From NCBI RefSeq assembly GCF_907164915.1, contig NC_061866.1, positions 20,700,429 to 20,764,428 of the forward strand: DNA of 64,000 bases, in the 5' to 3' direction. Numbering within the stretch: the first letter of the stretch is position 1; every line of letters begins with the position of its first letter. Positions 4,195 through 35,844 of this stretch are shown here, piece after piece. A model generated the notes under the pieces. The model was not told the DNA's origin. It saw only the letters and a program-made list of their open reading frames with translations, and made no database searches. The DNA is from Impatiens glandulifera. Its lineage: Eukaryota; Streptophyta; Magnoliopsida; Ericales; Balsaminaceae. The translations under genes and the position numbers were made by a program.

Positions 4195-4237
4195 TGATAA
4201 AGTATTAAATAAATAAGATAAATTATTTATTTATCTC
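4195..4237 (+). repeat. Copia 2 5' LTR, left piece
   Basis: Begins TGATAAAGTATTAAATAAATA, identical to the start of the 3' LTR at 26318. It is cut after ATCTC (4233-4237) by the Sirevirus insertion and resumes after the duplicated ATCTC at 22055-22059. Confidence 0.9.
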
Positions 4238-4944
4238 TGTTAGGATCTAGGTCGCAGCTGAAGAACTGGGGTCTGACCGGTTAGCACTCAAAGGTTGGTG
4301 TTTAATCCAGTTAAAGATTAACACCGAGTTTCAATACTACACAAACTGTCACAAACCCTTGAACCGAGTTCAAGTGCGGAAGTGGTTTGTTTCAGGTTCA
4401 AACAACACACACACAAGATGAATAAGGCTGGATTTGGAAAAGTCGGTTTGGAATTTGGTGGTCGGTTTGTGGATTCAGTAAGTCGGTTTAAGTAAGATTG
4501 GTTAGAATGTAAGGCCGCAGAAAGTAAATAATAAGACATGTTTTTATGGATGTTCGGAGATAAACTCCTACGTCACCCCTTCCTCTCGAAACCGCGAGAA
4601 GGATATTCACTAAGGAATACACAAACACAATCCGATCGAGACTTATTTGCTGCTCGATAACACTCGTACAATTCTCACCGAAATTGTAATCTCACTTCAA
4701 ATACACACTTAAGCTCTTTAAATTTAGAGAGATAAAGACCACTTATAACTTGGGTTGGTGTAACTCTTAAATGTTTTCTCTTGTGACTTGTAACTGTGGA
4801 ACTGGTAACTGCATTTACTCCTATTTAGCTCCTTCTTTTACAGGTGAAATGTCCCAACAGTCACATTTCTTCTCCTTGAATCTGATTGGTTGAGCAGAGG
4901 TTTAGTGTTTCAGACCTGGCGGTCTAGAGTTCTAGTGTATAGGT

Positions 4945-4960
4945 CAAACCGGCTAGGTTT
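4945..4960. repeat. LINE target site duplication, left copy
   Basis: CAAACCGGCTAGGTTT, repeated exactly at 9595-9610. The final T residues cannot be told from the element's poly-A tail, so the duplication could be counted one to three bases shorter. Confidence 0.9.
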
Positions 4961-5108
4961 TTTTTTTGGGGAAAACGACTTAGCGTCATTTCATTAAAAA
5001 TTCCCAAAAACGGGAAAAAAAACCACGAGTTTAAGAGATCATTCTAGACAGGCCTAGAATGATTTTGAAGTCGTAACATTCTGAATAAAAGCTAAAAACG
5101 TAAATGAA

Positions 5109-8100
5109 TTATCTGTTTACAATGCTTTCAATTCTAGTGAGTTTAAAAATCGGTAAATTCCAGTTCCTGCAGATATTCCAGTTCTGCTCCGTGCTTGGAA
5201 TTCCTCTCCACTTCCCCGCGAGGGCGCTGCAATCCGATACAATATCTTTCCATAACTCGTCAATGCTCCTGCGGGTTCTGTCATATACCCTTGCATTCCG
5301 TTCTTGCCAAATGTTATACACCACTGCTCCAAAGCCGCACTTGAACACGCTTGTTGCAAATCTATTTCCCTTGGCTTTGAGTAGTGCCGCTTCTTTGATT
5401 TCATTCCATTCGCTCAGGAAACTGATCAGCTCCAGGCTTTTATAGAATCTGTCCCAAAGCTCCGAAGCAGTACAACAGCTCCCGAATAGGTGATCTATGG
5501 TTTCTTCATTTCCTATGCATAGAAGACAGCTCGCGTCCGGGATGCTCATATACTTACTGATACGATCACGTGTGTTGAGTCTTTCCCAGAAGGCGAGCCA
5601 TAGGATGAACTTGTGTCGAGGGATAATCTTCGTTGACCATACAAGAGGAGCCCATTCTACTTTCTGCGCTTTTTCCCGGATTACCTCCCATATTTTCTTC
5701 AATACCAGCTTCCCATTGTCCTCAGCTTTCTATTCATGAATATCCGGTCTGTCGTGTAGTTGTATGTTACTTATATGATCAAGTATCCTCTTTCCTTCTG
5801 GAATTCTTCTCAAGAGCAAGTTCCAATTCCCGTATTTGATGTCTCTGATTTTCGCTTTTGCGCAGTCCCTTCTGATACGAGTATTTTGAAACTGCTCCTT
5901 GTCGATGATGGGCTGGTTTTCAAACCAAGGGTCGTGCCAGAATAGAGTGCCTTTCCCGTCCCCTAGTCGGATGTCATAAAGATCTGCAATATCGCTTCTT
6001 AGTTTAAGAATCTTTTTTAGAGACCAGCTCATACCTTCGTGAATTTTGCAGGTCCAGATGCTGGTTTCGTGTTTCATAAATCTCGTATGCACCCATTTGA
6101 TCCATAGTGACTCCTGATTGCGCTCCAAAGCCCACAGATGCTTGAAGGTTAGAGCCTTGTTCCACTCGATACAGTTCTTCAAGTCGACGCCTCCCTCGTC
6201 CTTCGGTTTGTATAGAGCGGTCCATTTGACTTTCTTTCCTCCTCTTCCACTATTACCCCAGATAAAGTTTCTCATCAGTGTGTCGAGTTCCTTCATTACC
6301 TTCTTCGGAATGACCATTTGCTGCGCCCAATAGCCAACTATGCCCATAACCACGGTTTTGATAAGTTCGATCCTCCCTGCACAAGAAAGTTTTTTCGCTG
6401 CCCAGCCAGATATCGTGTTTTTTACCTTTTCAATCAGCGGCTTGCAGTGTGAGATCTCGATCTGCTTTGCAGTTAACGGAATTCCTAAGTACCTTATGGG
6501 AAATCTGCCTTCCTTGATGCCCATGATGTTGAAGATGTCCTGTTTTGTTTCGTCCTTCACGCCTCCATAAAATGCCACACTTTTGCTTTCATTAATAGTT
6601 AAACCTGTTACCTCAGAAAAGAACGTTAGTGCAGCCCTAATAGTTTTAATGGAATCAACGTCCGCGTGCGCTAGAATGAACAAATCGTCAGCAAAGCATA
6701 AATGTGTTACCTCCTCTACCTCACAGAATGGGTGAAAGATGTATGGACGATTCTTTCGGAACATCGCGAAGATGCTCTCAAAGATCGCCATGATAGCTAC
6801 GAAAAGGTAAGAAGAGAGGGGGTCCCCTTGCCTTACCCCGTTTTCACCCTTGAAATAGCCTCTGTGGACTCCATTGACGCTAACAACAAAGCAGGATGAT
6901 GAAACGCATTGCATAATCCAATCGATAAAAATCATAGGAAAAGCAGAAACAACCAGAAAGTCTCGAATGGCTTCCCATTTAACAGAGTCAAAAGCTTTCT
7001 TGATATCTATTTTGAAAGCCACTCTCGGGGATATTTTCTTTTTCCCGTAGCCTTTTAATAGGCTCTGCATGAGAAGAATATTATGAGAGATTGTCCTACC
7101 AGGGATGAATGCAGATTGATTAAGATTTATTATTTTTCCTATAACATTTTTAAAACGTTTAGAAATGATTTTGGAAATTATTTTATAAATCACATTGCAG
7201 CACGAAATTGGTCTGAAATCTTGTACTTTCTCAGGTACCGCAGTTTTGGGGATCAAGGTTAGGACCGCTGTATTCCATTGCTTTAACATCTTCCTGTTTT
7301 TGAAAAATTCCAGAACCCCATCAGTAACATCTTTACCCACAACCGACCAATTATCTTTGAAGAACTGTGCATTAAACCCATCAGGACCCAGACTTTTATT
7401 CCCATCAATACTAAACAGAGCTTCTTTAACCTCAACTTTTGTGACCACCCTTATCAACTCGCGACTATCTTCTGCAGAGATTTTCTTATCGATAATTTGA
7501 TACAAGGTATTCAGGTGACTTTGATGCTGCTTTCTTGTACCCATAAGCTGCTTATAGAAATCAATAGCCAGATCTTGGACACCCTTTTGACCCTGAACAT
7601 ATTCACCATCATCATTCTTCAGCCTGTACACATTGTTTCTCATGTTTCTAGCCTTGCATTTTCTGTAGAAGAAAGCTGTGTTTTTGTCACCCAACGAAAG
7701 CCAGCTCTGTCTTGATTTCTGTCTAACAAAATTCTCTTCAAGCAGACTCAGCTTCCTGAAGTTTTCAAGCGCATATCTTTCTGTTTCATTGAGTTGTTCA
7801 TCACTATCATCCCTTAATAACTTTTTCTGAACCTCTTCCAGTTCTTCTCTAGCAGCCAGAACTCTATTGGAGATATTACTGAACTTCTTCTTGTCAAAGC
7901 TTTGGAGATGATTCTTCAGGAGCTTAAGCTTCTCAGAAACCCTGTACATGTTGGAACCTCTGACATCTGTTGACCATACACTTTCGAGGATACCCTTGAA
8001 TTTATCGTTATCCATCCAAAAATTGAAAAATTTAAAGGGCCTTTTGAACCTTTCTTCCTTTTCCCAAAACAATTTAATCGGGCAGTGATCAGATATACCC

Positions 8101-8759
8101 GGATTCAAAACATGAAGTTGACTTCTCGGAAATTGGTTAATCCAGTTCTCATTTACCAGACATCTGTCAATTCTACTTTTTCTAATTTGTTCATTCCCTC
8201 TCGTAGAAGACCAAGTGAAGAAGTTCCCAGAATTGGTAGGCTCGATACAACCCATATCTCTGATGCAGTCATTAAATTCAATCATATCCCGAGTAATTTC
8301 AGATTCTGGGCTACGATCAGATTCGTTTCTAGTTACGTTGTAATCACCGAGGACAGCCCAAGATTTATCAATACCGATCCAGTTTCTAAGACAATTCCAG
8401 AGGAGTCTTCTTTCCGTGCTTGAGTTGCTACCATAGATAATAGCAAGATTAAACATGATTCTTGTGATTCTGTCTTTGACCTCCACCAGGATTGCTTGAT
8501 CATTCGAAAAAAGAGTCATCACCTCAACAACTTTGTTATCCCAAATAACCCAAATTCTGCCCGTTTTGTCATTTGAGTTATGAATGATTTCCCAGCTACT
8601 ATCAATACACAGTTTGCTAACCTTCTCAACGTTCCGACTTTTGACTTTTGTCTCAAGAATACCCATAATAGTGATCTTCTGATTCTCAATGATCCTCCTG
8701 ATTTCTTTACATTTTAGAGGGTCATTGAGTCCCCTTATGTTCCATGTCACTATATTCAT
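5109..8759 (-). pseudogene. LINE ORF2: endonuclease and reverse transcriptase, one stop
   Basis: ORF2 of an L1-clade LINE, which nicks the target and copies element RNA into it. Residues 1-230 form an APE-type endonuclease: N7 in TWNIRG, E36 in LETK, D139 and N141 in GDYN, and SDH at 223-225. The reverse transcriptase follows: LIPK near 502, D585 in KIDIKKAFDSV, and the catalytic FADD at 689-692. The last part (5109-5702) has the zf-RVT pattern CLLC...ETIDHLF. The frame runs from ATG at 8757-8759 to 5109, interrupted only by a TAG at 5730-5732, after which the same frame continues to the normal end. That stop separates the zf-RVT part from the catalytic domains. All endonuclease and RT key residues look intact. 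Confidence 0.92.
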
Positions 8760-9592
8760 GAATGAATATAAGTGTTGGGTTCCTGACTTTCCAGACTGTC
8801 CTGGACCTCTTCATCAGAGAAATCATAAGCATTACTTGCCTCACTATCCTCAATGGCTACAGTTTGATTACATGGAATACTATTGCCATTGAGTGAGGGT
8901 TGCCTCATGTAGATCTCATCTTCTCCCGTGATAGATTTAGTAGCTTCTGGATCCAGAATCTTTCTGCTTTGTCTTCGATTTTCATCTTGTTCTGCTTTAG
9001 TAGATCTTTTCTGACTTTGAACCTCTTCACTACTAGATTCATGTTTGTTATCGGTTTTTATTCGCCCTACTTCAGAATTAAGGCTCACTGCCTTATTCAA
9101 GACCAAATTGTCTTCTTCTGCATTTGATCTTTTGATTTCACAAAAGCCAAGATTTCCCAGTCCATTTTCAAGAGCTTCTTTATTACTTATTCCAAGATTC
9201 TCCTGTTCATCATCTCGAAAGGTGGCTTTGAGCCCAAGGGTCAGGTCATTTCGAACTTTGATGGCATTGTTTTTTAGGTTCCTGCTTGCATTCCTAGAAC
9301 TGTGAAGAGTAGACTCACGACCTATTGGAGTGCCTTCAGATCCAATTTTGCTTGTTTCATATGGGCCAAGTATTCCCCCCCGTCCCATAGATCTTTGAAT
9401 TTCAGAAACTTTGGAACTAGGACATGTAGTTACATCAAGACCAGTTCTTTGATCAGTATTGGGATTAGTGGAGTTAGGACCAACAATAGTATCATCCACA
9501 ATAATAGGACTTGTGCCAGTATTAGGACCAATATAGCCGGGATCAGCAATGGTTGCACATTTTTCATCAGGACCTGTAGTAGCAAGTCCGGT
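8756..9592 (-). pseudogene. LINE ORF1, C-terminal fragment
   Basis: An open frame of 278 codons from the insertion junction to TGA at 8756-8758, with no ATG at its beginning. In plant L1 elements ORF1 encodes a nucleic-acid-binding chaperone with an N-terminal DUF4283-type domain and a zinc knuckle. None of that part is seen here, only a hydrophilic, acidic and low-complexity tail. The stop overlaps the ORF2 start as ATGA, a layout compatible with termination-reinitiation. The identity rests on position beside a clear ORF2. The missing N-terminus comes from 5' truncation at insertion, not later decay. Confidence 0.75.
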
Positions 9593-10042
9593 AGCAAACC
9601 GGCTAGGTTTGTCTTTTACTCAATATGGCAACTGTCGGTTGGACAGTTGCCTGCACCTGGAGGGTTGCGCCTCTGATTTATCCCAGAGTGGAAAGATCTT
9701 GTCAGGCGGTCTTCTGCAGCCTGCAGATTGTCTTCAGACTTGTATGAATATGGCAATACTATGGTCTGTCCCTTTGATATCATCTTCAACAGATACTTAA
9801 GGTATTTGTTTGCACCGATCGGTTGTTTAGGTTAATCGGATGACTTCCGGTTTTTCACAGCTTCAGGTTAACCGGATGACCTCCAGTTTTGGCCTTGTCT
9901 TCTTGACCGGTCTTGTCTTCCTGACCGGTTGAATTCTTAACCGGTTGGATTACTTAACCGATCCTAGTTCTTTAACCGTTCTCCTACATAGGAAGTTTAT
10001 TTTGTTAGGTTATTATTTTTATCTGGTCTAATTTATCTAACA

Positions 10043-10220
10043 ATTTCTCCTTTTTTGATTATTTTATTTAAAATATTCAAAACCATGTAAGAATGAAGAT
10101 GTAGGCCGGTTTCTTTAAAAGTTCATTTGGCCGGATTTTTGGAAAATGACTTAGAAAAAAAATTTCGAAAAATTTTGTCATTTGGAAAATTTTTATCTTA
10201 TCAATTTCTCCCTTTTTGAT
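10043..10220 (-). promoter_or_regulatory. duplicated polypurine tract region of the Sirevirus
   Basis: Directly inside the 3' LTR the minus strand reads AATCAAAAAAGGAGAAAT (10043-10060), the polypurine tract that primes plus-strand DNA synthesis. About 160 bp further in, near 10203-10222, the same context returns with AATCAAAAAGGGAGAAATTG. It is followed by the same roughly 50 bp (TTTTATTTAAAATATTCAAAACCATGTAA on the plus strand). Repeated tracts before the 3' LTR are a known Sirevirus trait. Confidence 0.75.
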
Positions 10221-10521
10221 TATTTTATTTAAAATATTCAAAACCATGTAAAAATGAAGATGTAGACTGGTTTCCAAAAATACTTGATATATATATATAT
10301 ATAAAATTATACTAAGTTAAACATAGGCAATATATAATTAAACAAAACTTCTATCTCCTTTTCTTGGGCAGGTATTTATCTAGCATGTGTTCAGTCATCA
10401 TTCCCTTGCCCGGATTGCAGGGATCGGCGCCAGGTCTGGAGGAGGATCTTTGACCTCCTGAGGTACCGGTGAAAGGTGAAACCGGTGGAGCAAACGATCT
10501 AAGTGGAATCACTTCAAGACC

Positions 10522-13020
10522 TCACGTTCTTTTGAGTGGCGGTACAGCCTTTTCCTCAAATTCTTCATCGTCTTGTAAGATCGTGTTGAGTGGAGGTGAA
10601 GTGACCGGGTCAGTAGTGTTGTCCAGTAGCTTTTGAACTGCTGCCCTTTTGGAAGAAGCCGTTCTCTTTCTGGTGGTCGGTCCGGTTGATGGAGCTGCCT
10701 CCTTTGATTTCTTATGAGCATTGGCGAGCTCTTCGTATGTAAGCTGTTGGTCGAGTAGTCGAGCCGCATCCTCATTCCGCTGAACCTCTATTACCGGTTC
10801 AACATACTCTATATTTTGAACGTGTTGGGCCGGGCTTGCATCCGCTTGCACTGTTTCCTTTTGAATTTGGACTTGCTCGTCCTCGGCATCTTGAATCTTT
10901 GGAGCCGCGATTTCATTTACTTCTTCAAGTGCTTTGTCAGCTGCTAGCTTTGCCGCTACCATCTCCGCCAGTTGTTCGGTAACCGCCATTAGATCAGCTT
11001 CGGTCTTGGCATGCTTCTCTTCAAGCGTTGTAATTTTTTCGAGTATGGATCCAGCCTTTGACACCGGACTGAGACTGATTCCCTTCAATAGTATTCAGCC
11101 TTTGATCTGTTGTTATTAGGTGGAGATTTACCAAACAGACCTGTTGGTTGGTATGAGCAATATCGGTCTCCAACTTCTTAGTTACAGCCTCCAACGTCTT
11201 AGTTCTATCGGTTGTTTCGCCGAACAAAAGATCGGTAAGGCCGTATTTTTCCTCAACGGACGTAATTCGTTCAACCGCGGCTTCCAGCCGTTTATCGGTT
11301 GACTCAATCATCTCGATAGATCTTGTTGCAGTTTCCTTTATAATTCTTTTGACATGGAAGGATGGCTGCATTGACAAATTCCTCGATAATGTCCTTGACC
11401 CTATCCTCTGTTACAGCCGGCACCGAAGCATTGTCAGTTTGCGGAGATGCGTGCTGATCGGTGATCGGAATGCCCGTTTCGAATTCGGTGTTGTTGATCA
11501 CGGGTTCCAGTTGACGAAAGATATGTTCAGCTTCGGTCAGATTCGGACCGCCATCATCATCAGGATTAGATCTGGAGAAGAGTGATGCCTCTTGGTGATC
11601 GGGTTCCGCTTCCAACCGTGCCAGCTCATCGGTCAGTTCCCGTTCTTTGACTGTTAGCATATCCAGCACTAAGGTCTCGAACTAGGATTCCTCCGTCCCA
11701 GGGATGTGCTTTTCACGAAGATGTTGGATATGATCGGTGAGTTCTAGTAACCGGGCATGCGGTTCGACCATCTTACTTCTTCGAAGAGCGGTCACTACGC
11801 TCTTAGCCTTTGTAAGGTTGATGACTTCCGTTTCCATCTCAATCAATTTTTCGTATCTTCGGTCAACGGGATGTTCCGGTAGCATGTTGGTGTAGAAGAT
11901 TTCATGCCGGTTTAGAGCCCATTGAAAATAAACATCGCTCGCAGCGTGAGCGTGAACGTAAATTTGGTTCATGATTTGTTTGACGAGATCCTCTCCCATT
12001 TGCCGAATGTGTTCATCCGCGGATTCATTTCTTTCCGGTTGCCCGCCCGAACCGGTTTCAGTATCATCATTTCTGGCCGATTGTTTTTTGACCACCTTCT
12101 CTTTCCCTTTGCCAGACCGATCCGCCCCGGTGTTGTTTGAGAGAGTTCGGCCAGAGCTGGATGCCGAATTTTCCGTATTGAGGGTGTCGGACTGAGGATT
12201 AGCCGACCCGGTCGGTTGCTGATCCGCCTTGCTTCCGGATTATTCTTTTGCCGGACCTTTTTCTTTTTGGTTGTGACTTCCTTCGGCCGCTTTTACTGCC
12301 GGAGACCTTTGTTCTGCCCTGTTTGTCCTCCGGTCTAATAAAATGAGTGGATTTTATGATTTTACTTGGAGGAATGAAGACACCCGGGCCGGTTTCAGCA
12401 TTGATGTGGCGCGTTATCTTCCCAAGGGGAACGACGTATCCCCACGACCGTCTTGAAGATGGATCCGCCATCTCACAGAAGTTAGAAAAGATTACCTTAG
12501 CCCAGTTGATTTTAATGTCATTAATCAAACCGGCTATCATCTCGATCTTTAACCGCGTGAGGCTATCATAGTTGTCTCCTCTTCCCTGAACCGACTTTGA
12601 GAGAATCTCGCAAAGCGGTCTATATTCCGGTTTGAGGGAGTTTTTCTTACCGGACACAGCTATCGGTTCCTTGGTGTCCGAGATATCGCGGCAGACCGCT
12701 TGGAATGTTTCCTCGTCTGTAGACACCGAAAAATCCTTTCCTTCTATCAGTAAGTGTAGAACTTCAGCAGCTGACACTTGTGTTAGTTCAAACTGTTTTC
12801 CGCGGATTGTTGCAGATATAACTCCATTGTTGTGGATGGCGGTTTGGAAGAATTCGGTAACCGCGTCTTGATATTGAACGAACGGTCCGTTCAAGAAGTG
12901 TTCAAGACCGGAAGTGGATATAAGGTCTAGCACCCGTTTAGCTTCCGCCGATCCATTTGTTCTAATTTCCTCGAAGTCGACCTGGAAGATGTGGGTGAAA
13001 AGCACAGATTCGCGACCCAT
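10522..13020 (-). pseudogene. Sirevirus accessory ('envelope-like') gene, long form, third in tandem
   Basis: The longest of three related accessory genes. The first 273 codons (12199-13020) are uninterrupted from ATG and hold the shared N-terminal domain: a GLEHFLNGPFV stretch, then EFF, then a region ending in INWAKVIF near residue 190. A lysine/arginine-rich stretch follows. A frameshift just after 12199, a TAG at 11682-11684 and frameshifts near 11304-11377 and 11021-11088 break the rest. The broken part would carry long charged helices (heptad-like TEADLMAVTEQLAEMVAAKL) typical of coiled coils. Sirevirus 'env-like' proteins have such coiled coils. I see no signal peptide or membrane span, so an envelope role is not supported. 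The N-terminal part resembles the 'putative plant transposon protein' domain (PF20167), from memory. Confidence 0.75.
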
Positions 13021-13126
13021 TGTGATTTGGAGAGAACGAGAGATCGAGAGTTTGAAAGCTTGAGAAATTTGAGAGCTAGAGAGAGAAAGTTGTTTCGCGT
13101 AAGAATGAGATAAAATGACTAAGGAC

Positions 13127-13137
13127 GATATATATAG
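13127..13137 (-). promoter_or_regulatory. TATA box before accessory gene 3
   Basis: Minus strand CTATATATATC lies 107 bp upstream of the ATG at 13020. The sequence between is a pyrimidine-rich leader (CTCTCTCTAGCTCTC, CTCTCGATCTCTCG), as in plant 5' UTRs. Inferred core promoter; no transcript evidence. Confidence 0.5.
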
Positions 13138-13418
13138 TCGCGGGTTGGAATTTCAACCGCCGCGAACCGTCACATCAAGATTGGGCGGGAAATTTCCCTC
13201 CAAAAAGTTATTGGGCGGCAAGTTTTGGCGGCAAACATTGAGCTGGAATGCGGTCATCTTTGTAACCGTTGATTAAGAGAGTGGTGTTGTGGTGTAACCG
13301 TTTTATTTATGAGGCGGTTATTTAAACGGTGATGAAGCGATTAGCAATATTAACCAGTTGAACGTTTAAATCGGTATTTTAACTTTGCGATTTTGACCCG
13401 GTATTCGAACTTAGTAAT

Positions 13419-14207
13419 TTAAATGATCATTTGATTAAAAGAAAAGGACATAATAGACACCGATACACAGATCGGTTTAAAGTACACAAGATAAAAGATT
13501 ATAAAGTATGTAACGATTATTTTAGAGAGTTTGTCCTCCACCACTTCCTCGTTGAGAACATTTGAGAGGTTCACCGGGGTACCCGGTCTAAGATTTGGAT
13601 GGTGTGTACGAAGGAGCCGGCTTATGTGGGGGGCATAGCTCAAACCTTTCTTTGTCTCGACCATGGTTTTCAGGTTATTGAAGATGACCGATGACCAATT
13701 GATGGGGGTGATGCTGACGATGTAGGTCATCATGTCGAAGACTTTCTTAGAATAGTATTGGTTCGGAGATTGGCAGATGATAGATCGGTTGACGATCTCG
13801 TGAAGGAGTTGGATGTGATGGGCGAGGCGGGTTTTCAGACCATAGTTCTCCACCGGCACTTCGGTTCCGGAGAACATTTCCGCATAGTCAACTGTTGCAC
13901 TGCCCACCCGGGATGGGAAGTCGGAGAAACCTTCAGTGGGCAGATTGAACATCCAAGAGAATCCGCTTTCGTGAAGAACAAAGATGTGGTTTTTCACGAC
14001 GGAAGTAATGGCATCGCCGAGTATGGCTGCATTATTGAAGAATTCCATTACCTTTGGAATGAACATGGGTCCGGATTCTTCGAGAAAATAACGAAGGCCG
14101 GTGTCGGTGAGGGATTCAAACAGGAGTTCTCTCACTTCAAGATCCTCTATGTTGAGGACGGAGTCGAGATCGATGCATAGATAATTTTTTAGAGTACGGT
14201 TAGACAT
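13419..14207 (-). CDS. Sirevirus accessory protein, second in tandem
   Basis: An uninterrupted 262-codon ORF starting at ATG 14205-14207. It shares with its two neighbours the order GLRYFLEESGPMFI, then VMEFFNNA, then FNLPTEGFSDFP, then a HEIVNRSI region and INWSSVIF near residue 175. It lacks the coiled-coil tail of the third gene. After residue 230 the frame runs into a hydrophobic stretch (IIVTYFIIFYLVYF) that is either a membrane-anchor-like tail or translation of AT-rich noncoding DNA past a lost stop. The function is unknown. Its own TATA box lies 81 bp upstream. The ORF is intact although pol in the same element is badly broken. Confidence 0.65.
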   Translation of the reverse strand: MSNRTLKNYLCIDLDSVLNIEDLEVRELLFESLTDTGLRYFLEESGPMFIPKVMEFFNNAAILGDAITSVVKNHIFVLHESGFSWMFNLPTEGFSDFPSRVGSATVDYAEMFSGTEVPVENYGLKTRLAHHIQLLHEIVNRSIICQSPNQYYSKKVFDMMTYIVSITPINWSSVIFNNLKTMVETKKGLSYAPHISRLLRTHHPNLRPGTPVNLSNVLNEEVVEDKLSKIIVTYFIIFYLVYFKPICVSVSIMSFSFNQMII

Positions 14208-14634
14208 TCTTTCAAATCTTGCTAAGAGAGAGAGAGTTTAAGAAATTATAAGTTGTTTGGGGGTATTTCGGAATGAAAAGGGGGGTTCCTTATATAGATT
14301 TGAGATTGGAGGGAAAATAGAAGCATTTAATGCTAATATTCCGTTTTGTCTTATTAATGTTGGGTATATTTATGTTTCCAAAACCCTAGGAGCTCGAGGA
14401 GGAGAATCTAGTTAGGAAGTAACTAGGTTTGTGTAATTTCCCATGTAGTTGGAATTCAAAAGTTACTTTTCATTAATGAAAGTGGAGTTACAACAAACTG
14501 AAAAACACATAGATTAACCGAAAAGATCATAATGGAGTAGGATGACAATACAACCGGTACGTACAGCAAAATGACCGGTTGTAAGAAGGAGTGACTTAAT
14601 TTCTGGAAGAGTTGAGATGTCGGTTCTTCCTTTT
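14208..14634. other. spacer between accessory genes 1 and 2
   Basis: About 430 bp with no ORF. The part next to gene 2 holds its leader and TATA box. The part next to gene 1 would be the 3' flank of gene 1. No other signal recognised. Confidence 0.5.
14288..14297 (-). promoter_or_regulatory. TATA box before accessory gene 2
   Basis: Minus strand CTATATAAGG, a near-ideal plant TATA box, 81 bp upstream of the ATG at 14207. The leader between contains CTCTCTCTCTTAGC. Inferred core promoter. Confidence 0.55.
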
Positions 14635-15339
14635 TTAGGCCTTCTCGAACCGCTCATAGAACGAGTCGGCAACTTCCCTAGTTATGACTTGGGCCTGGTT
14701 CAGCCCTTCGCCTGGACAGAGCGGAACCCCGAGTTCCATGAGTAGGCAGCTGATCTGAGGAATGAGGCCTGTATGGCGAGTGGTGATCATCCAGATCAAG
14801 ACATCGAACAGCACCCTGGACCAGTTGACCGGCGTATCTGTTGTGATAGCGGTCATCATGTTGAAAACTGTGGCACAGTAAGTATTGGTCACATCCTTAC
14901 CCAGGATGCACCGACCGATGATATCATTGAGAAGCTGGTATTCATCCCTCAATGATGACCGAGCACCGTGGTCACTGATCGGATGGTTCGATCGAGAAAA
15001 GTTTAGAGAGATTTCGGCCTTTAGTTCGGTCGGAACATGCAGATCGGTGAGACCTTTCTTTGGAAGGTCGAAGCACCGAGCAAAATCACTTTCTGAAAAG
15101 TCAAACACGGTTCCTCCAACCCTTGATTGAATGAGGGTATCAAAGTACGGGGTACCGCGGAAGACCCTTGCATTGTTGAAAAATTCCAGAACAGTTTCAG
15201 GGAAGATGACATGTTTGTCATCTAGAAAGGATTTCAGACCGATGTTTTCAAGAGATTTGATCATTTTAAAGATCTCATAGTGTTCTGTCCCTTGATCAGA
15301 GTTGAAATCAACTCTGAGAATGTTTTGAAACTGAGACAT
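14635..15339 (-). CDS. Sirevirus accessory protein, first in tandem
   Basis: An uninterrupted 234-codon ORF from ATG 15337-15339 to a stop at 14635. It carries the family pattern: IGLKSFLDDKHVIFPETV, then LEFFNNARVF, then FARCFDLPKKGLTDL, then NDIIGRCILGKDV and a MMTAI...PVNWSRVLF segment near residue 175. It is essentially the N-terminal domain of the long third gene, without basic region or coiled coils. No signal peptide, membrane span or known catalytic motif is visible. It lies 528 bp past the RNase H stop with its own TATA box, so read-through from pol is unlikely to be its only route of expression. The biochemical role is unknown. Confidence 0.65.
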   Translation of the reverse strand: MSQFQNILRVDFNSDQGTEHYEIFKMIKSLENIGLKSFLDDKHVIFPETVLEFFNNARVFRGTPYFDTLIQSRVGGTVFDFSESDFARCFDLPKKGLTDLHVPTELKAEISLNFSRSNHPISDHGARSSLRDEYQLLNDIIGRCILGKDVTNTYCATVFNMMTAITTDTPVNWSRVLFDVLIWMITTRHTGLIPQISCLLMELGVPLCPGEGLNQAQVITREVADSFYERFEKA

Positions 15340-15400
15340 TTTTGTCTTAGTGAGATGATAAGTTGATACTTGTGAATATTTTGTCTGATGTTTACCTAAC

Positions 15401-15410
15401 TTATATATAG
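15401..15410 (-). promoter_or_regulatory. TATA box before accessory gene 1
   Basis: Minus strand CTATATATAA, 62 bp upstream of the ATG at 15339. The intervening leader is A/C-rich (CAAGTATCAACTTATC), like a plant 5' UTR, with no upstream ATG in the last 40 bp. Inferred core promoter. Confidence 0.55.
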
Positions 15411-15867
15411 TTTGAGGAATAACAGTATTATCCAGTGTATATTAGGTGATTTAATCTATTAACCATAGGATAAAACAAATTGCATGAATTAGGTGTGTCT
15501 ACAGCCTAAGGTGTTAGTCATAGGCCTGGACAGTGAGAGATATCATATATTCACGTCTTTTAAGGTATGACTATTTTGTTTTGAAAAATATCTTTTCAGA
15601 ACAGATACATCTAAACCCAGAAAGTTGTTCCACTTTTGTTAGGAGGCCAAATAATCCAAAATATATTATATTCAAACCGGTCGGTTTTCAGTCATTGGTC
15701 CCGATGCGGTTAATTAGTGCATGCACTAAGTAACCGGTCGGTTTACTGTAACTGATAGATAGAGTGGTTCTTCAATAAATACAATGATGAATTCGGTACC
15801 TGACATTTTAGGAAGAACTGTCGGTTTTGTCTGTCCAAACTGATTTTCCTTTTAGAGATTGAGAGTT
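15411..15867. other. pol to accessory-gene spacer
   Basis: About 460 bp between the pol stop and the first accessory promoter. No long ORF. Several CCGGT words occur, as elsewhere in the element. Any enhancer for gene 1 would lie here. Confidence 0.45.
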
Positions 15868-18800
15868 TTAAGAAATGAGTTGATTAATATCGGTTAAACC
15901 GAGGATGTTTCTGAAGTAAGAAAACTTAGCTTCCTGCAGAGGCTTTGTGAAGATATCGGCTACTTGTTGTTCTGTTGATACGTATTCCAGTCGGATATGC
16001 TTCAGCATGACATGTTCCCGAATGAAGTGGTGCCTTATGTCGATGTGCTTGGTTCTAGAATGTAAAACCGGATTGTATGTGATTGCAATGAAACTTGTGT
16101 TGTCACAGAAAATCGGTGATTCTTCGGCGGTGACACCGAAATCCTTTAGTTGTTGTTGAATCCATAGGAGTTGTGAACAACAACTTCCGGCTGCTAGATA
16201 TTCAGCCTCTGCGGTTGACGTAGCAACTGACATTTTCTTCTTGCTGTGCCATGACACAAGTCGATCGCCTAAGAATTGCATGTTCCGCTGGTACTTTTTC
16301 TGTCAACTTTACAACCTGCATAGTCTGCATCCGAGTAACTTGTGAGGTTGAAAGATAAGTCCTTTGGATACCACAGACCGACTTCAGGGATTCCCTTTAG
16401 GTATTTCAAGATTCTCTTAGCGGTTGTGTAGTGAAACTGTTTTGGATTAGCCTGAAATCGTCCATACACTCCAACCGCAAATAGTATGTCTGGTCTACTT
16501 GCTGTCAGGTATAGGAGTTAACCGATGATTCCGCGATAGGCCGTCAGGTCTACTGCCTGACCGTCATCATCTTTTTTCAGCTTAATTGATGAGCTCATTG
16601 GAGTGGCCGCGGAGGAGCATGTATCCATCCCAAATTTCTTTAGAAGTTCCTTTGTGTATTTGGGCTGACTGATGAAGGTTCCTCCTTCGAGCTGTTTAAC
16701 CTGAAGGCCTAGGAAGAAGCTTAATTCTCCCATCATACTCATCTCAAATTTGTTAGTCATCAAGGTTGAGAATTTATCACATAGCTTAGGATCGGTTGAT
16801 CCGAAAATGATGTCATCTACATATATTTGAACAAGTAGGATATGTCCCTTTTTCTCAAATTTAAATAAGGTTTTATCCACTAAACCTATGGTGAAATCGT
16901 GTTTTAACAGAAATGTGGTTAGTGTATCATACCAAGCTCTAGGAGCTTGCTTTAAACCGTACAATGCTTTATTTAGGCGGTATACATGATTAGGAAGATC
17001 AGCATTTTTAAAACCTGGTGGTTGTTCAACATATACTTCTTCACGTAGATCACCATTTAAAAATGCACTTTTAACATCCATTGAAAAAACCTTAAAGTTT
17101 TTGAATGCAGCGAACACTAGAAAAATCCTAATGGCTTCAATCCTAGCTATAGGGGCAAATGATTCTTCAAAATCAATGCCTTCTTCCTGTTTGTATCCTT
17201 GTGCCACTAATCTAGTTATGTTCCTCGTGACCAAACCGTCTTCATTGAGTATATTTCTGAATACCCATCTTGTTCCTATGACCGGTTGATCTTTCGGTTT
17301 AGGGACTAGGTACCAGACTTTGTTACTCTCAAACTAGTTTAACTCTTCTTGCATTCCCAAGATCCAATCCGGATCTGACAATGTTTCATCCACCCTTTTC
17401 GGCTTAATCTGGGATATAAAGGTGGAATTAAAGTATTCCTCCAGTATTTGTTGCCGAGTTTGGACAGGTTTTGAAGGGTCGCCTATAATAAGCTCAGGAG
17501 GATGGTTTGTGTTCCTTTTGAGATTCGGTTCAGGAGTGTCTACCAAATCACCGTTTATTTGATCAAGGATAGACATATCGGTAGGCTGAACAATAATGTC
17601 AGACCGACCGATTTCCTTAGTTTGAACCGAGGTGTCAGTTCATGCTGTGTGGCAGCTTGATCCGGATGGGTTTCATCATCACCCATTTGGTCATGGACAA
17701 ACCGTCTGAAAACCGGAACATCATCTTCACTATCAAAATAGATATTGTTATTTTCCAATCTGTTGTGTAGATCAAAGGATGATGCAGTGTTACTTTCAAC
17801 CAATTCATCGAATACAACATGAAGAGATTCTTCCACGGTTAAAGTTCTAGTGTTATACACTCTATATGCTTTACTAACTGCTGAGTAACCTAGCATTATC
17901 CTAATATTGGATTTTGCATCAAAAGCAGATAAGTAGTTTTTGTCATTTATATGAATGTAACATTTACAACCGAAAATTTTAAGATACCTAATGTTAGGGA
18001 TCCTATCAAAGTATACTTCATACGGTGTTTTGTTGTGAAACTTGTTAATCAAAGACCGGTTTTGCGTGTAACATGCAGTATTGATAGTCTCAGCCCGGAA
18101 TTTTTGAGCAACCCCCGAATCGGCTATCATGGACCTTGCGGCTTCCTTGAGAGTTCGGTTTCTTCTCTCGGTCAGGCCGTTCTATTGAGGAGTCCTAGCA
18201 CTACACAACTCGTGTCTAATACCGGATTCATCAAGAAATGCATTTAGGATACTGTTTGTAAATTCGGTTCCTCTATCACTCTTAATGTTGTTTATGCGTG
18301 TTGATTTTTCATTCTGTGAACGCTTAAGCAATGTGATTAAGTTTGATGCGTTTTCACGTTTGGATGCTAAAAATATTACCCATTTATATCTAGAATAATC
18401 ATCAACAACTACCGTAGTGTAGAGCATACCACCTAGGCTGATGAACCTAATTGGTCCAAATAGGTCCATGTGAAGGAGATCTAAGCATCGGTTAGACTAA
18501 AAATGTGTCCTTTACTCTTAAAGGTTGACTTAGTTTGTTTACCCGTTTGACATGCTGAACAAACCTTATCCTTGTTAAATACTATATTAGGAATTCCTTC
18601 AACTAGCTTTTTACCGCGGATATAATTTAAGGTTTTGAGGTTCAGATGATTTAGCCTTTTATGCCACAGCCAGATTTGATCGGTTTTAGCTATCATGCAA
18701 ACATGATGTTCTACTTCATTTTTCCAGTCTACCTTGTATATATTTCCCAACCTATTTTCGGTTAGTAGTATGTTACCCTGAGAGTTTTTGACTAAACATG

Positions 18801-19134
18801 CATGTTTAAGAAATTCTACTGTGTATCCAACATCACACATCTGACTAATGCTTAGTAGGTTAAAATGTAAATTTTCAACTAAAAGTACATTATCAATTGT
18901 TAAATTACCATATACAATCTTACCCTTGACCACAGTTCTACCTCTTGAGTTGTCACCGAAGACAATCATTGCACCGGTTTCTATTCTGATGTCGGTAAGA
19001 AGGTTGTTGTTACCAGTCATTTGTCTGGAGCAACCACTATCCAGATACCACTCAGAGTTTCCTAACCGTTTCTTCATATCCTGCAAAATATATATATTTA
19101 CAACTATTTGGTACCCACATTTACTTGGGTCCAC
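15868..19134 (-). pseudogene. Sirevirus pol (protease, integrase, RT, RNase H), multiply broken
   Basis: Copia-order polyprotein that would mature the particle, integrate the DNA and make the cDNA. Visible in order: protease WYLDSGCSRQMTG; the WHKRLNHLN pre-integrase zinc region; integrase core with VVVDDYSRYKW, SDRGTEF and, across a stop, NG..ERRNRT; reverse transcriptase with [15 protein letters not shown] and the catalytic YVDDIIFGS; RNase H with SYSDADYAGC, STAEAEYLA and CDNTS, ending in a TKHIDIRHHFIREH region. Lesions: a frameshift near 18470-18485, TAG at 18179-18181 where TPQQNG is expected, a frameshift near 17560-17600, TAG at 17334-17336 where ELNQFE is expected, a stop at 16518-16520 and a frameshift near 16270-16280. 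The active-site residues survive but no full product is possible. Confidence 0.92.
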
Positions 19135-19163
19135 AATTGATTAGTCCCTTAGGTATCCAGACT

Positions 19164-20861
19164 TTAATAAGTCGGACAACTTTCCCGGTTAGGTTTGACG
19201 TCTTTCTGTTTTCCTAAGAGTGCCTTATTTGGAGGTGGCCTTTGGTTTATCCTATGTGGTCGTGGATCGGTTTGCTTACCTTTGGGTCGGTTCGCTTTCC
19301 TTTTCTCAGGATGAAGCCATTTTTCTGAGTCAGTTGGACTTACATAGGTTACTTCGTCTTCCGGTTTTGAATCACTTTGTTCCTCATCATCGGTTGAAGA
19401 GATCTTGACAAATCTTACAAAGGGAAGTTTGTCTTTTGTAAGCTTCATTTTGTCCGAATGGTTCCGATTGGTGGATTTGTTGTCTTTGTATCCAAGACCA
19501 AATTTGCATGTGGGATGTCTTTTATACTTAGACAACTGATTCACCATTTCACTGGATCTTTTCCATGCAGCTATTCGATACCAGGTTCGGGCATCTTCCT
19601 CTTCGGTCAACTCTTGAACTGACTCTTTGAGCTGTTTGGTCTCAAAGGATAGTTCAGGTATTGCCTTGGTTTCTAGGATTTTATCAGGTTGGATAGTTTT
19701 TGGTTCGGACAGGGTTGGTGCTATGGGGTCGGTTCTAAAGTTGAGTTGGGTTGGTATTAAGGTTAATAGGTTCTTATACTCTGCTACCATGTCATTCAGT
19801 GCATTAAATAACTCATGTTTAGTAAATTCTTCACAGAGAGAGTCAAATACATGTTCCTCATTTGCCATGAGACATGTGAGTTCATCATCACTGTCACTGT
19901 GAGCCCATAAGCTTCCTCCATCATCGGCTATCAGTGCTTTCTGAACTTCACTTCCTTCACCGGTTTGTTGGTAGTTATTTCTGTGATTCTGATCATCCGG
20001 TTTCCGGTCATCCCGTCTTGATTTTCTGCATTCCCACCTGAAATGTCCCAAACAATTGTAATTATAACATCTAACATTAGATTTATCACTGTAGTTAGTG
20101 TTTGTCGGTTGGCTTCTTTTCATGAATCGGCCAAATTTCTGTGCAAGCATTGCCATGGCATCCTCGGTGAATTGTTCAGCGATTTTGATCGGTGTTGGAG
20201 CAACCGATTCCATGGATGTGACTAAGGCTTTTGTAGAGGTTGAAGCTGAAACTTCATCTTTAATCCTAGATCTCATCTCAAACTCATATGCCTTAAGATC
20301 TTCGAATACATCGTGTAGCTTTATCTTGCTTAGGCAGTTTGATTCCCTCATCACCATCGTCTTTATGTCCCATGCACTTGGAAGAGACCTTAACGCTTTC
20401 ATGATAGTTTCATTGTTGTCATACTTCTTTCCAAGAGTTGATAACTCGTCTATCACATCTGTAAACCGGTCACTGTACTCCATCATTGTTTCTCCCGGCT
20501 TCATCTTAATGTTTTCAAACTTCTGGGTAGCTACCATCAATTTGTTTTCCTTGGTTCTTTCGTTTCCCTCATGTATTTGAATCACCATCTCCCATATTTC
20601 CTTTGCGGTTTTGCAATCTCTGACTTTACAGAAAGTATTCCTGTCCAAACCGTTGATGATGTGATTTCTAGCATGGTTGTCCAGATTATTTCTTCTCCTG
20701 TCATCTTTTGTCCAATCCTCCCTATCTTTATCAATCTTTATCGGTCCTTCAGCCAGGATGAATGACATCTCATCATCCATAATGATTAAGTGCAGATGTA
20801 TGTGTAACTTCCAGTTGACAAAATCATCACCTTCTAGCATTGGAGGCTTATCAAGAGTCAT
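19164..20861 (-). CDS. Sirevirus gag (nucleocapsid), nearly intact
   Basis: A 565-codon ORF from ATG 20859-20861, the structural protein that packages element RNA. Residues 10-200 form the UBN2-type gag domain, with KEIWE, EGNERTKENK and a WDIKTMVMRES region. The zinc knuckle at 265-278 reads CxxYxxxxHxxxxC: the second cysteine (residue 268) is tyrosine (codon 20058-20060), so zinc binding is probably lost. The C-terminal half is charged, with a QLKESVQELTEEE helix. The frame ends at 19164, but a one-base shift reopens a conserved KVWIPKGLI segment that runs to a stop near 19143. The last few residues here are therefore probably frameshifted. The primer site lies about 25 bp upstream of the ATG. 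Confidence 0.88.
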   Translation of the reverse strand: MTLDKPPMLEGDDFVNWKLHIHLHLIIMDDEMSFILAEGPIKIDKDREDWTKDDRRRNNLDNHARNHIINGLDRNTFCKVRDCKTAKEIWEMVIQIHEGNERTKENKLMVATQKFENIKMKPGETMMEYSDRFTDVIDELSTLGKKYDNNETIMKALRSLPSAWDIKTMVMRESNCLSKIKLHDVFEDLKAYEFEMRSRIKDEVSASTSTKALVTSMESVAPTPIKIAEQFTEDAMAMLAQKFGRFMKRSQPTNTNYSDKSNVRCYNYNCLGHFRWECRKSRRDDRKPDDQNHRNNYQQTGEGSEVQKALIADDGGSLWAHSDSDDELTCLMANEEHVFDSLCEEFTKHELFNALNDMVAEYKNLLTLIPTQLNFRTDPIAPTLSEPKTIQPDKILETKAIPELSFETKQLKESVQELTEEEDARTWYRIAAWKRSSEMVNQLSKYKRHPTCKFGLGYKDNKSTNRNHSDKMKLTKDKLPFVRFVKISSTDDEEQSDSKPEDEVTYVSPTDSEKWLHPEKRKANRPKGKQTDPRPHRINQRPPPNKALLGKQKDVKPNRESCPTY

Positions 20862-20886
20862 GCTTGCTTGAGTATTGAAACTAACT

Positions 20887-20898
20887 GCTCTGATACCA
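20887..20898 (-). promoter_or_regulatory. primer binding site of the Sirevirus
   Basis: Minus strand TGGTATCAGAGC, complementary to the 3' end of initiator methionine tRNA, two bases inside the 5' LTR. It primes minus-strand cDNA synthesis. The same 12-mer is used by the two other Copia elements here (22249-22260 and 33040-33051). Confidence 0.92.
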
Positions 20899-20900
20899 AT

Positions 20901-22054
20901 TGTTAGGATCTAGGTCGCGGCTAGGGAACCAGGGTCTGACGGTTAGCACTTAAAGGTTGGTGTTTAATCCGGTTAAAAATTAACATCGGGTTTTAATACT
21001 ACACAAACTGTCACAAACCCTTGAACCGAGTTCAAGTGCGGAAGTGGTTTGTTTCAGGTTGAAGCAGCACACACATTGGATGAATAATGCTGGATTTGGA
21101 AAAGTCGGTTTGGAGTTTGGTGGGTCGGTTTGTGGATTCAGTAAGTCGGTTTAGTAAGATTGGTTAGAATGTAAGGCCGTAGAAAGTAAATAATAAGACA
21201 GGTTTTTATAGATGTTCGGAGATAAACTCCTACGTCACCCCTTCCTCTCGAAACCGCGAGAAGGATATTCACTAAGGAATACACAAACACAATCCGATCG
21301 AGACTTATTTGCTGCTCGATAACACTCGTACAATTCTCACCGAAATTGTAATCTCACTTCAAATACACACTTAAGCTCTTTTAATTTAGAGAGATAAAGA
21401 CCACTTATAACTTGGGTTGGTGTAACTCTTAAATGTTTTCTCTTGTGACTTGTAACTATGGAACTGGTAACTGTATTTACTCCTCTTTAGCTCCTTCTTT
21501 TATAGGTGAAATATCCCAACGGTCACATTTCTTCTCCTTGAATCTAATTGGTTGAGCAGAGGTTCAGTGTTTCAGACCTGGCGGTCTAGACTTCCAGTGT
21601 ATAGGTCAAACCGGCTAGGTTTGTCTTTTACTCAATATGGCAACTGTCGGTTGGACAGTTGCCTGCACTTGGAGGGTTGCGCCTCTGATTTATCCCAGAG
21701 TGGAAAGATCTTGTCGGACGGTCTTCTGCAGCCTGCAGATTGTCCGCAGACTTGTATGAATATGGCAATACTATGGTCTGTCCCTTTGATATCATCTTCA
21801 ACAGATACTTAAAGTATTTGTTTGCACCGATCGGTTGTTTAGGTTAACCGGATGACTTCCGGTTTTTCACAGCTTCAGGTTAACCGGATGACCTCTAGTT
21901 TTGGCCTTGTCTTCTTGACCGGTCTTGTCTTTCTGACCGGTTGAATTCTTAACCGGTTGGATTACTTAACCGATCCTGGTTCTTTAACTGTTCTCCTGCA
22001 CAAGAAGTTTGTTTTGTTAGGTTCTTATTTTTATCCGGTGTAATTTATCTAACA
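20901..22054 (-). repeat. Sirevirus 5' LTR
   Basis: 1154 bp, TGTTAGG to TCTAACA as read on the plus strand. It aligns over its length with the left LTR once the LINE is removed. It still shows the unoccupied LINE target (near 21605-21621), which proves the order of insertion. Confidence 0.95.
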
Positions 22055-22059
22055 ATCTC

Positions 22060-22248
22060 CTATTAATTAGGCTAAATATAATAACCAATTCCTATATTTT
22101 CTCAATTTAGTTATTTCTCTATTACTATTATAAATAGATAAACTATTGTAAAAATTATTCATTCCATCAATAATATTATTTCAATCTTTCTCTTCAAGAA
22201 CTCAATCAAATAGTTCTTGTTTATTTTATCAATTCAAGAAACCTAACT
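22060..22248 (+). repeat. Copia 2 5' LTR, right piece
   Basis: Continues the 4195-4237 piece and matches 26360-26563. The two pieces add up to about 232 bp. The 14-bp difference from the 246-bp 3' LTR is a duplicated CAAATAGTTCTTT in the 3' copy. Confidence 0.9.
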
Positions 22249-26317: not shown

Positions 26318-26563
26318 TGATAAAGTATTAAATAAATAAGAGAAATTATTTATTTATCTCCTATTAATTAGGCTAAATATAATAACCAATTCTTATATTT
26401 TCTCAATTTAGTTATTTCTCTATTACTATTATAAATAGATAAACTATTGTAAAGATTATTCATTCAATCAATAATAGTATTTCAATCTTTCTCTTCAAGA
26501 ACTCAATCAAATAGTTCTTTCAAATAGTTCTTGTTTAGTTTATCAATTTAAAGAAATCTAACT
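26318..26563 (+). repeat. Copia 2 3' LTR with polypurine tract
   Basis: 246 bp, TGATAAAG to CTAACT, preceded by the purine tract GAAGGGGA (26310-26317) and followed by target duplication ATATA (26564-26568). Confidence 0.9.
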
Positions 26564-33081: not shown

Positions 33082-34865
33082 ATGACGACCATAACCAAAT
33101 ATGCTAGTGCTACCGCAATCCCCACATTCTTTAGAGAAAACTATATCGTGTGGAAGAAGATAGTTCGTGCTCATCTCTCGTCTCTTCATGGCGACATGTG
33201 GAGTGTCATCACAGATGGTCCTATCAAGATCGGTAAGGAGAAATCCGAATGGACCAGTGAAGACAAGAGGAAGAACAACTTCAATAACTTGGCTCTAGAT
33301 GTTCTGTACAGGTCTCTTGATAATAGCATGTTCAACTACATCATCGAGTGTGATACTGCTAGGGAGATATGGGACAAACTCACTCAACTGTGTGAGGGCA
33401 ATGAGAAAACAAAGGAGAACAAGATTATGGTTTCCACTCAACAGTTTGACTATTTCAAGATGCGTGCTGGAGAATCGATGAACGAGTTCGACACAAGGTT
33501 CAGCCAGATTGTGTCCACCCTATCTATCCTCGGCAAGACCTATAGCAACATGGAGCTTGCTATCAAGGTCAAGCGTGCTCTTTCAAGGGAATGGGACATA
33601 AAGATGATGGCTATGAGGGAATCTAAAGACCTCAACAAGATCTTTCTCTTCGATTTGTTCGTTGATCTCAAGGCCTACGAGATCGAGTTGAACTCTAGGA
33701 TTGAAGAAGATCAATCCACATCCATTATCATTGCCAAAGCGTTGGTGACTTCTGAAGAGCCTCATGCCGCACCTGATGTGCAGACAGTAGTGATGCTATG
33801 TCTCTCTTCGTGAAGAAGTTTGGTGACTTCATGAAGAAGAGCAACTCTAACTCAAGCTCTTCAAATTCTAATGATAATAAGAAATCCAAAGCTAATGTTA
33901 AGTGTTATAACTGTGGTATTTTAGGTCAATATCAATCGGAATGTCGGAAGCCAAAGCGTGAAGAGAAGAAGAATGACAATGAAAAGGAGCTGAAGGCGCT
34001 TATGGCAGGTGAAGGGAATAACATAAGAAACCACCATGACTCGTACTTCTCATCCAGCGACAGTGATGAAGACGAAGTGGCTTGCTTCATTGCAAGAGAA
34101 GAAGAAGAAACTCAGGAAACTGAGGTATTTGATTTTTCTTCCGAAAAGTTTTCAAGGGAACAACTGATAGTTGCACTAGATGACATGGTCATAGAGTACA
34201 GAAAGCTAGCAGAGTCCCTAAATGAAACAAAATCTTTACCCAAAGAGTCTCAACCGGTTTCATCTCAAACTTCTAAATCAAATGTTTTTGAAAAGAAAGT
34301 TGCAGAGATCTCATATGAGAATAAGATGCTCAAAGAACAGATTCAAACTCTTTTTGCTGAAAACAAACGGTTAAATTATGTTGTAAGTGCTTGGACAAGG
34401 TCTGGAGAAGCTATCAAATATCAGATCAGTCTATTAAAACCTGCTGAATTTAGATCCGGTTTAGGATTTGATAGCAATGACCCAAACCGGTCCTGCAAAA
34501 AGTCAAACTCAGCTACCAACAAGCTTAAGCCAATGAGCTTTGTTAAAGGGAGTTTAACTGATATTGAATATGATCCCATTCATGAAGAAGTAGCTTTGAA
34601 GAATGAAATAACTTATGTTCCGCCGATTGTTAGCTAACTGAAAAATAAGTTAGAAGCAGCCAGCAAGTCTGGCAATTTAAAACATGACTCAAAGTCAAGG
34701 AGTTTTAAAAGAAAATCATCCTCAAAAGCTAAAGGATCAGTGGCTAGTAGGAAGGCGTCTGCTAAGTCAAAATCATATGTATTAATCACAACACAAAATG
34801 GGAAATCCATCACAATATCTCAAATATGGATTCCTAAGGGACTAATTGATCGAGGACCCAATTGA
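33082..34865 (+). pseudogene. gag of the pol-less element
   Basis: Homologous to the gag at 19164-20861 (GPIKI, EIWDKL, EGNEKTKENKIMV and a WDIKMMAMRES region). ATG at 33082. A one-base shift near 33780-33795 moves the frame. The second part carries the zinc knuckle CYNCGILGQYQSEC, where the expected histidine is glutamine (codon 33927-33929). An in-frame stop at 34635-34637 interrupts the tail, after which the same frame continues through a lysine/serine-rich stretch to IWIPKGLIDRGPN and a TGA at 34863-34865. Gag would form particles; as it stands only a partial protein is possible. Confidence 0.85.
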
Positions 34866-35712: not shown

Positions 35713-35722
35713 TTTATATAAG
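35713..35722 (+). promoter_or_regulatory. TATA box of the accessory gene
   Basis: TTTATATAAG, 123 bp before the ATG at 35845. The leader is pyrimidine-rich (CTTTTTCTCTCTTAAG, CTTCGATCTTCTTTCTC). It mirrors the layout before each accessory ORF of the other Sirevirus. Confidence 0.55.
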
Positions 35723-35844
35723 GTCTCTTTGCATGAGATTGAAAAAGCTTTTTCTCTCTTAAGTTTTCTAAGAAACCTAGATTTCTTCGATCTTCTTTCT
35801 CAGAAACCCTTGTTTATCTCGTGTCTGTTCGTATTCTGTTAAAA

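Follow-up and report, generated by a model that had tools for sequence, protein, structure and literature searches.

What do the env-like genes of plant retrotransposons do? Their function is unproven and disputed (PMC3414828, PMC2829016), and the question is raised by a stretch of 64,000 nucleotides of Impatiens glandulifera (contig NC_061866.1, positions 20,700,429 to 20,764,428; hereafter the window), in which a Ty1/copia element of Sirevirus type carries three consecutive open reading frames (ORFs), called here O1, O2 and O3, between pol and the 3′ long terminal repeat (LTR). A sequence-only reading of this locus had regarded them as paralogs amplified inside the element. Our analysis leaves little doubt that the three ORFs are paralogous genes of ancient origin, maintained by selection and each preceded by a promoter-like region of its own. 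That they serve a VANC-like, self-directed anti-silencing function in this high-copy lineage is a possibility we rate at just under even.

Three homologous ORFs sharing one domain

All three ORFs lie on the minus strand at the positions first assigned to them (Table 1), and they are homologous beyond doubt. BLASTP aligns O1 with O2 at 32% over 226 columns (E 1e-32), O1 with O3 at 23% over 222 columns (E 6e-16) and O2 with O3 at 22% over 211 columns (E 7e-13), and the local alignment scores of these pairs (270, 153 and 131) compare with a maximum of 63 in 1000 shuffles per pair. The motifs named in the sequence-only reading occur in a common order across the alignment. Its remark that only O3 continues beyond the domain also stands: the tail pieces T1 to T4 follow, in shifted frames or behind a stop, and T1, T3 and T4, but not T2, have counterparts in the tail of P0051, an Impatiens protein.

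The fourth relative proposed at that stage is real as well, found on the plus strand at 35845-36594 and 23–28% identical to the three. It is the env-like domain of a second plus-strand element (33121-36800), whose gag (33121-34634) is 31–46% like that of the first element and in which the space between gag and this domain is too small for pol; it is perhaps a pol-less derivative.

One protein search gave 54 hits, 50 from Dorcoceras and four from Impatiens glandulifera, another gave five from Dorcoceras, and a later one 56, all listed as Impatiens. The predicted proteins of Dorcoceras hygrometricum share the domain at 22–38% identity, some with a basic and acidic tail, and differ in being at near-equal distance to O1, O2 and O3. 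The Impatiens protein annotated as 'PR5-like receptor kinase' (P0052) has at its start a domain of O1 type (66% over 149 aa); here an element copy has probably been fused into the gene model. The search of viral contigs gave one pattern match and no relative, and that of PDB sequences four matches, all at E 0.5 or worse.

Age of the triad

The O1 family is very large, the 150 matches scored from 18,851 first-look candidates all being at least 82% identical. Twenty other copies (family A) were picked from these 150 by O1 protein similarity and read over 6.8 kb each. In 18 of them O1, O2, O3 and the tail pieces are present in the same order, with T1 inverted in L019 and no match to T4 in L024; of the remaining two, a deletion has removed O2 and the start of O3 from one, and the other has only O1 and O2. 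The triad is also found in four of four copies of a second family (family B), with identities to the window of 61–69% for O1, 47–50% for O2 and 44–46% for O3, and there the O3 gene is open over 927–936 codons. A third family (family C) turned up by chance in one of five stretches drawn at round coordinates; it is 76% identical to the window in the reverse transcriptase (RT) and 84% in the RNase H part, but only 35% in O1, 34–46% in O2 and 38% in O3. Divergence of the accessory genes thus far outpaces that of pol.

In a tree of the domain (about 100 residues, with the relative at 35845 dropped for length), the labels O1, O2 and O3 need the minimum of two changes, a value reached in 0 of 200 shuffles; O2 (92/92) and O3 (89/95) are supported, and O1 is not resolved as a single group. 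Given the triad in families A, B and C and this distribution of labels, the triplication predates at least three families in the genome, and gene amplification within one copy is rejected.

The ends of the ORFs differ between copies. O1 runs 13 codons further in 17 of the 20 other copies (stop near codon 247), and O2 stops at about codon 234–235 in 17 of the 19 copies that have it, the other two being shifted. The short forms of O1 and O2 can be taken as real, since their stops are shared across copies. The hydrophobic end of O2 (about residues 235–262, the last 28 codons or so) is peculiar to the window copy, and a membrane anchor on O2 was rejected on this ground.

Synonymous distances are uneven between modules of the same element pairs, those of L038 against the other family B copies being 1.1–1.4 for O2 and 0.17–0.34 for the O3 domain, which points to single modules having been exchanged. 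The O2 of L038 (1608-2299) and that of L035 (2951-3655) are only 55% alike, with O1 at 94–99% and O3 at 87%, and single accessory modules seem to pass between families. In L035 an NCBI gene model, P0053, joins the end of O1 (2189-2440) to the O3 tail (5459-6970) and skips O2, and P0054 on another contig resembles it. An O1 with a long tail of its own was rejected as a genome structure, these being gene models, possibly spliced, and not ORFs; if such a splice is true, several domains could share one tail.

Selection on the three genes

Ratios of nonsynonymous to synonymous change (dN/dS) were obtained from an alignment of 18 family A copies, leaving out L015, L016 and L021, and the same set serves below for box conservation, for the comparison of ACCG sites across copies and for motif shares in the gaps. 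Median dN/dS is 0.117 for O1, 0.269 for O2 and 0.224 for O3, compared with 0.163 for the RNase H part and 0.34–0.50 for the tail pieces. Shifted frames of O1–O3 and RNase H give 0.98–1.71. The baseline in this material lies below 1, because noncoding gaps read as if coding give 0.49–0.69 before O1 and O2 and 0.70–1.25 before O3; the three domains are clearly under this baseline, the tail pieces only partly. The choice of family A by O1 similarity may lower dN for O1, but family B, chosen by its tail, gives a similar result (O1 0.045–0.153, O2 0.187–0.526, O3 0.131–0.291, tail 0.24–0.35). Judged by these ratios, O1, O2 and O3 are long-diverged genes under purifying selection.

It could be argued that the ORFs are degenerate leftovers, or that their arrangement is limited to this copy, as the O3 of the window is broken and the ends of its O1 and O2 are copy-specific. 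With the triad in 18 of 20 copies and in two other families, and with domain dN/dS below the noncoding baseline, this explanation is refuted and its probability is practically nil.

A promoter-like region before each gene

On the sense strand of 9595-22056 the word CTATAWA occurs five times, twice in the LTR and otherwise 71, 90 and 117 nt before the start codons of O1, O2 and O3. Across copies, TATAWA is found within 160 nt of the start in 20/21 for O1, 19/20 for O2 and 18/19 for O3, the O1 box mostly at −66 to −71 (at −28 in L018). The stretch from 25 nt past the box to the start is free of ATG in 20, 19 and 17 copies, respectively, and the start ATG is intact in 18/21, 18/20 and 16/19. When nine-base windows of the gaps are ranked by conservation, the four best of 513 fall on the O1 box (the preset window ranks 14), and the boxes of O3 and O2 rank 1 of 387 and 18 of 419. 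In family B, boxes precede all 11 of the 12 starts that could be mapped: TATTTAA at −69 to −74 for O1, TATATA or TATTTAA at −84 for O2 and TATAAA at −110 or −111 for O3, where TATTTAA was admitted as a box type only after a first look had found no TATAWA before O1. These positions make it probable that each of the three genes has a core promoter of its own. An internal promoter of the Sirevirus env gene has been proposed, and not conclusively found (PMC2829016).

Predicted fold and possible roles

The best match of the predicted fold is VANC21, a DNA-bound protein. The nucleic-acid role favoured over an envelope in the sequence-only reading looks likelier here too, and by eye no membrane feature other than the copy-specific end of O2 was seen in O1, O2 or the O3 domain. 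An anti-silencing mechanism could run as follows. The shared domain would have the fold and the action of VANC21; the proteins would enter the nucleus, O3 by its basic stretch, and bind a short motif scattered over the element, and this binding would keep element DNA from being silenced. O1 and O2 would act as single-domain binders, and O3 would add a coiled-coil-like tail for assembly.

The best fold match speaks against envelope-like or movement proteins that would aid particles across membranes or plasmodesmata, a role suggested for the env-like genes of Sirevirus and Athila elements. The position between pol and the 3′ LTR fits such proteins, ORFs of this kind are termed env-like, with mention of transmembrane and coiled-coil parts (PMC3414828, PMC7264820), and the O3 tail is coiled-coil-like by eye, with relatives named rootletin-like or myosin-like. 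However, we saw by eye no conserved hydrophobic segment in O1, O2 or the O3 domain, and a library of predicted viral protein structures gave no match at E 0.001, so we consider this role quite unlikely.

The basic stretch of O3 could also belong to an RNA-binding or particle-assembly protein, chaperone-like and present in three copies for different steps, and env-like ORFs have been suggested to act as chaperones (PMC7264820). The domains are acidic, however, and proteins needed alongside gag would hardly be expected to have promoter-like regions of their own, which makes this role hardly probable.

A candidate target motif

If the anti-silencing reading is right, the best candidate for the bound motif is (A/G)ACCG(A/G)T, the wider word around an overrepresented ACCG. 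In 9595-22056 ACCG makes up 213 of the 904 NNCG words (0.236), where a model keeping trinucleotides expects 149, and its share is 12/242 (0.050) in the inserted LINE and 132/2176 (0.061) in the remainder of the window. Pooling gives 0.201 for the 20 family A copies and 0.192 for the four family B loci, and 0.038 and 0.034 for two sets of 12 loci with the domain DUF1985, the first set being mostly near-identical. The stretch 33500-37000 around the second element has 0.075. When codons were shuffled 1000 times with protein and codon use kept, the ACCG count was reached in no shuffle for gag and O3, in three for pol b, nine for T1, 16 for O1 and 28 for RNase H; it was reached in more than 50 for pol a, RT, O2, T2 and T4, and the two LINE ORFs show no excess under this procedure.

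In fixed windows the ACCG share peaks in the gaps before O1, O2 and O3 (0.324, 0.377 and 0.243), with 0.12–0.19 in O1–O3 and the tail, and AACCGG clusters in the 5′ LTR (8 against 0.5 expected, 0/200 shuffles). Both observations would also suit transcriptional activators or integration-targeting factors, which would share the fold and the DNA binding but influence the LTR promoter or the selection of targets instead of methylation. The spread of the motif through the whole element, coding parts included, argues against this alternative, which we find rather unlikely. In Sireviruses, repeated motifs with a CGG-CCG core accumulate in the LTR and upstream of the env gene (PMC2829016); together with (A/G)ACCG(A/G)T they suggest themselves as candidate binding sites of the env-like proteins.

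ACCG is weakened as a mark unique to these elements, as one random 2-kb stretch without an element match (L064) has a share of 0.138; the five random stretches L063–L067 have 0.180, 0.138, 0.047, 0.000 and 0.091 (0.117 pooled), the highest being the one that proved to hold family C. Protection of ACCG sites from CpG decay was not seen across copies, where they decay like other CpGs. The three ORFs give no match at E 1 to DUF1985, a domain of VANC proteins, this domain is not among the families listed (25 of 37) for 40 relatives, and profile comparison was not significant, so a sequence-level link to DUF1985 was rejected. DUF1985 genes are themselves very numerous in the genome (150 scored of 1391 candidates, all over the cut-off), many of them alike and open (G000, L039–L062), and these loci are perhaps young Mu-like elements.

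Structure of the element and its surroundings

The element occupies 22054 to 4238 of the minus strand and is flanked on either side by the 5-bp target duplication ATCTC; its LTRs agree at 94.7% and 96.0% across two blocks. The LINE within its 3′ LTR, named by eye, has ORFs at 5730-8759 and 8756-9499.

Table 1. Coordinates of the element's parts in the window
Feature	Position	Strand	Remarks
5′ LTR	20901..22054	-	TGTTAG...CTAACA ends; TATA box at 21505
Primer binding site	20887..20900	-	TGGTATCAGAGC, which we take to be of initiator tRNA-Met type; directly after 5′ LTR
gag	19164..20861	-	PF14223
Reverse transcriptase	16518..17234	-	PF07727
pol end, presumably RNase H-type	15868..16281	-	no Pfam match at E 1
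O1 TATA box	15400..15410	-	about 68–71 nt upstream of O1 ATG
O1	14635..15339	-	234 aa, short, single-domain
O2 TATA box	14288..14297	-	90 nt upstream of O2 ATG
O2	13419..14207	-	262 aa, short, single-domain
O3 TATA box	13128..13137	-	117 nt upstream of O3 ATG
O3	12199..13020	-	273 aa; domain and start of basic region (residues 226–273, pI 12)
O3 tail piece T1	11685..12239	-	
O3 tail piece T2	11307..11681	-	behind in-frame stop
O3 tail piece T3	11024..11410	-	shifted frame
O3 tail piece T4	10525..11094	-	shifted frame; coiled-coil-like by eye, basic end
Polypurine tract adjoining 3′ LTR	10043..10056	-	near copy within repeat 10192-10274
3′ LTR, first part	9595..10042	-	
3′ LTR, second part	4238..4967	-	split from first part by LINE insertion 4968-9594

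The element is apparently nested in the LTR of a small plus-strand copia element, whose repeat copies (22055-22218 and 26356-26519) are 97.6% alike, and the sequence left of 4238 (4200-4237) resembles the stretch preceding 26356. Elsewhere in the window, tandem arrays with 28- and 75-bp units lie at 38998-40584 and 50894-52492, both stretches being 84% alike over 1.6 kb.

The label Sirevirus, used from the start, is upheld in part. A Ty1/copia gag-pol with PF14223 and PF07727, sense ORFs between pol and the 3′ LTR and the primer site all fit, and the element likely belongs to this lineage. The multiple polypurine tract (PPT) octamers AGGGGGAG, described for the group (PMC2829016), have no exact match in the window, and the last 1500 nt of 21 copies hold only four words within one mismatch of it (L021, L022, L023, L028); a variant tract is present, and in view of the missing octamers we speak of Sirevirus type. 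A simple CCHC pattern was not found in the 565-aa gag ORF, the gag-pol border being broken into ORFs.

Comparison with known systems

With Sireviruses the element shares the Ty1/copia gag-pol and a sense ORF with a coiled-coil-like tail in the place of the env-like gene or eORF-3′F; 74% of SIRE elements have an ORF of this kind after pol and before the 3′ LTR (PMC6317226). It differs in that its ORFs are three paralogs in tandem, each behind a conserved TATA-type box of its own and two of them short and single-domain, and in a PPT of the type AAAAAGGGAGAAAT instead of AGGGGGAG. Three separately promoted paralogs in one LTR element would be an unusual gene organisation. The open-licence literature gave nothing on tandem env-like paralogs, which is weak evidence of absence. 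Three ORFs encoding env-like proteins may occur at the 3′ side of plant elements (PMC11728184).

The proteins with PF20167 (Transposase_32) or Athila ORF1 (PF03078) are alike in the same weak profile match, and for a 3′ ORF of a sunflower Athila element both PF20167 and a relationship to Athila ORF1 have been reported (PMC11728184). O1, O2 and O3 differ in that all fall below the 45-bit gathering cut-off of Pfam (21.9, 15.7 and 33.6 bits).

For other lineages, the idea that additional ORFs of LTR elements might influence silencing or methylation is already in print (PMC11728184, PMC12844716). CG methylation of SIRE elements falls strongly between the LTRs in sunflower; the paper that describes this cites VANC and asks if methylation is influenced by the additional ORFs found in Tork and Athila elements, and in its accessible part makes no link to the env-like genes of SIRE (PMC12844716). 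No VANC-type fold for env-like proteins, and no link between env-like ORFs and VANC, was found in the open-licence literature, again weak evidence of absence.

More tentatively than for the Impatiens lineage by itself, we propose that Sirevirus-type env-like genes may be VANC-like sequence-specific anti-silencing proteins and not envelopes, three of them under separate promoters in Impatiens and with the CGG-CCG motifs as their sites. The predicted VANC-like fold, together with the candidate target motif and the three selected paralogs, makes this a clear alternative, testable in vitro. To our knowledge, the VANC-like anti-silencing class is known only from Mu-like DNA transposons. If the proposal is true, both classes of plant transposons came to counter silencing with DNA-binding proteins that they encode themselves, whether by separate origin or by spread, and this may help explain the success of Sireviruses.

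The VANC proteins of VANDAL transposons resemble the triad in being transposon-encoded and in the element-wide short motif, and VANC21 is the closest match of the triad's predicted fold. The triad also diverges faster than the enzyme genes (34–46% identity to family C, against the higher values of RT and RNase H), as VANC diverges faster than VANA (PMC5735166). They differ in that VANC is encoded by a Mu-like element, whereas the triad lies in a copia retrotransposon, whose motif extends into the coding parts too.
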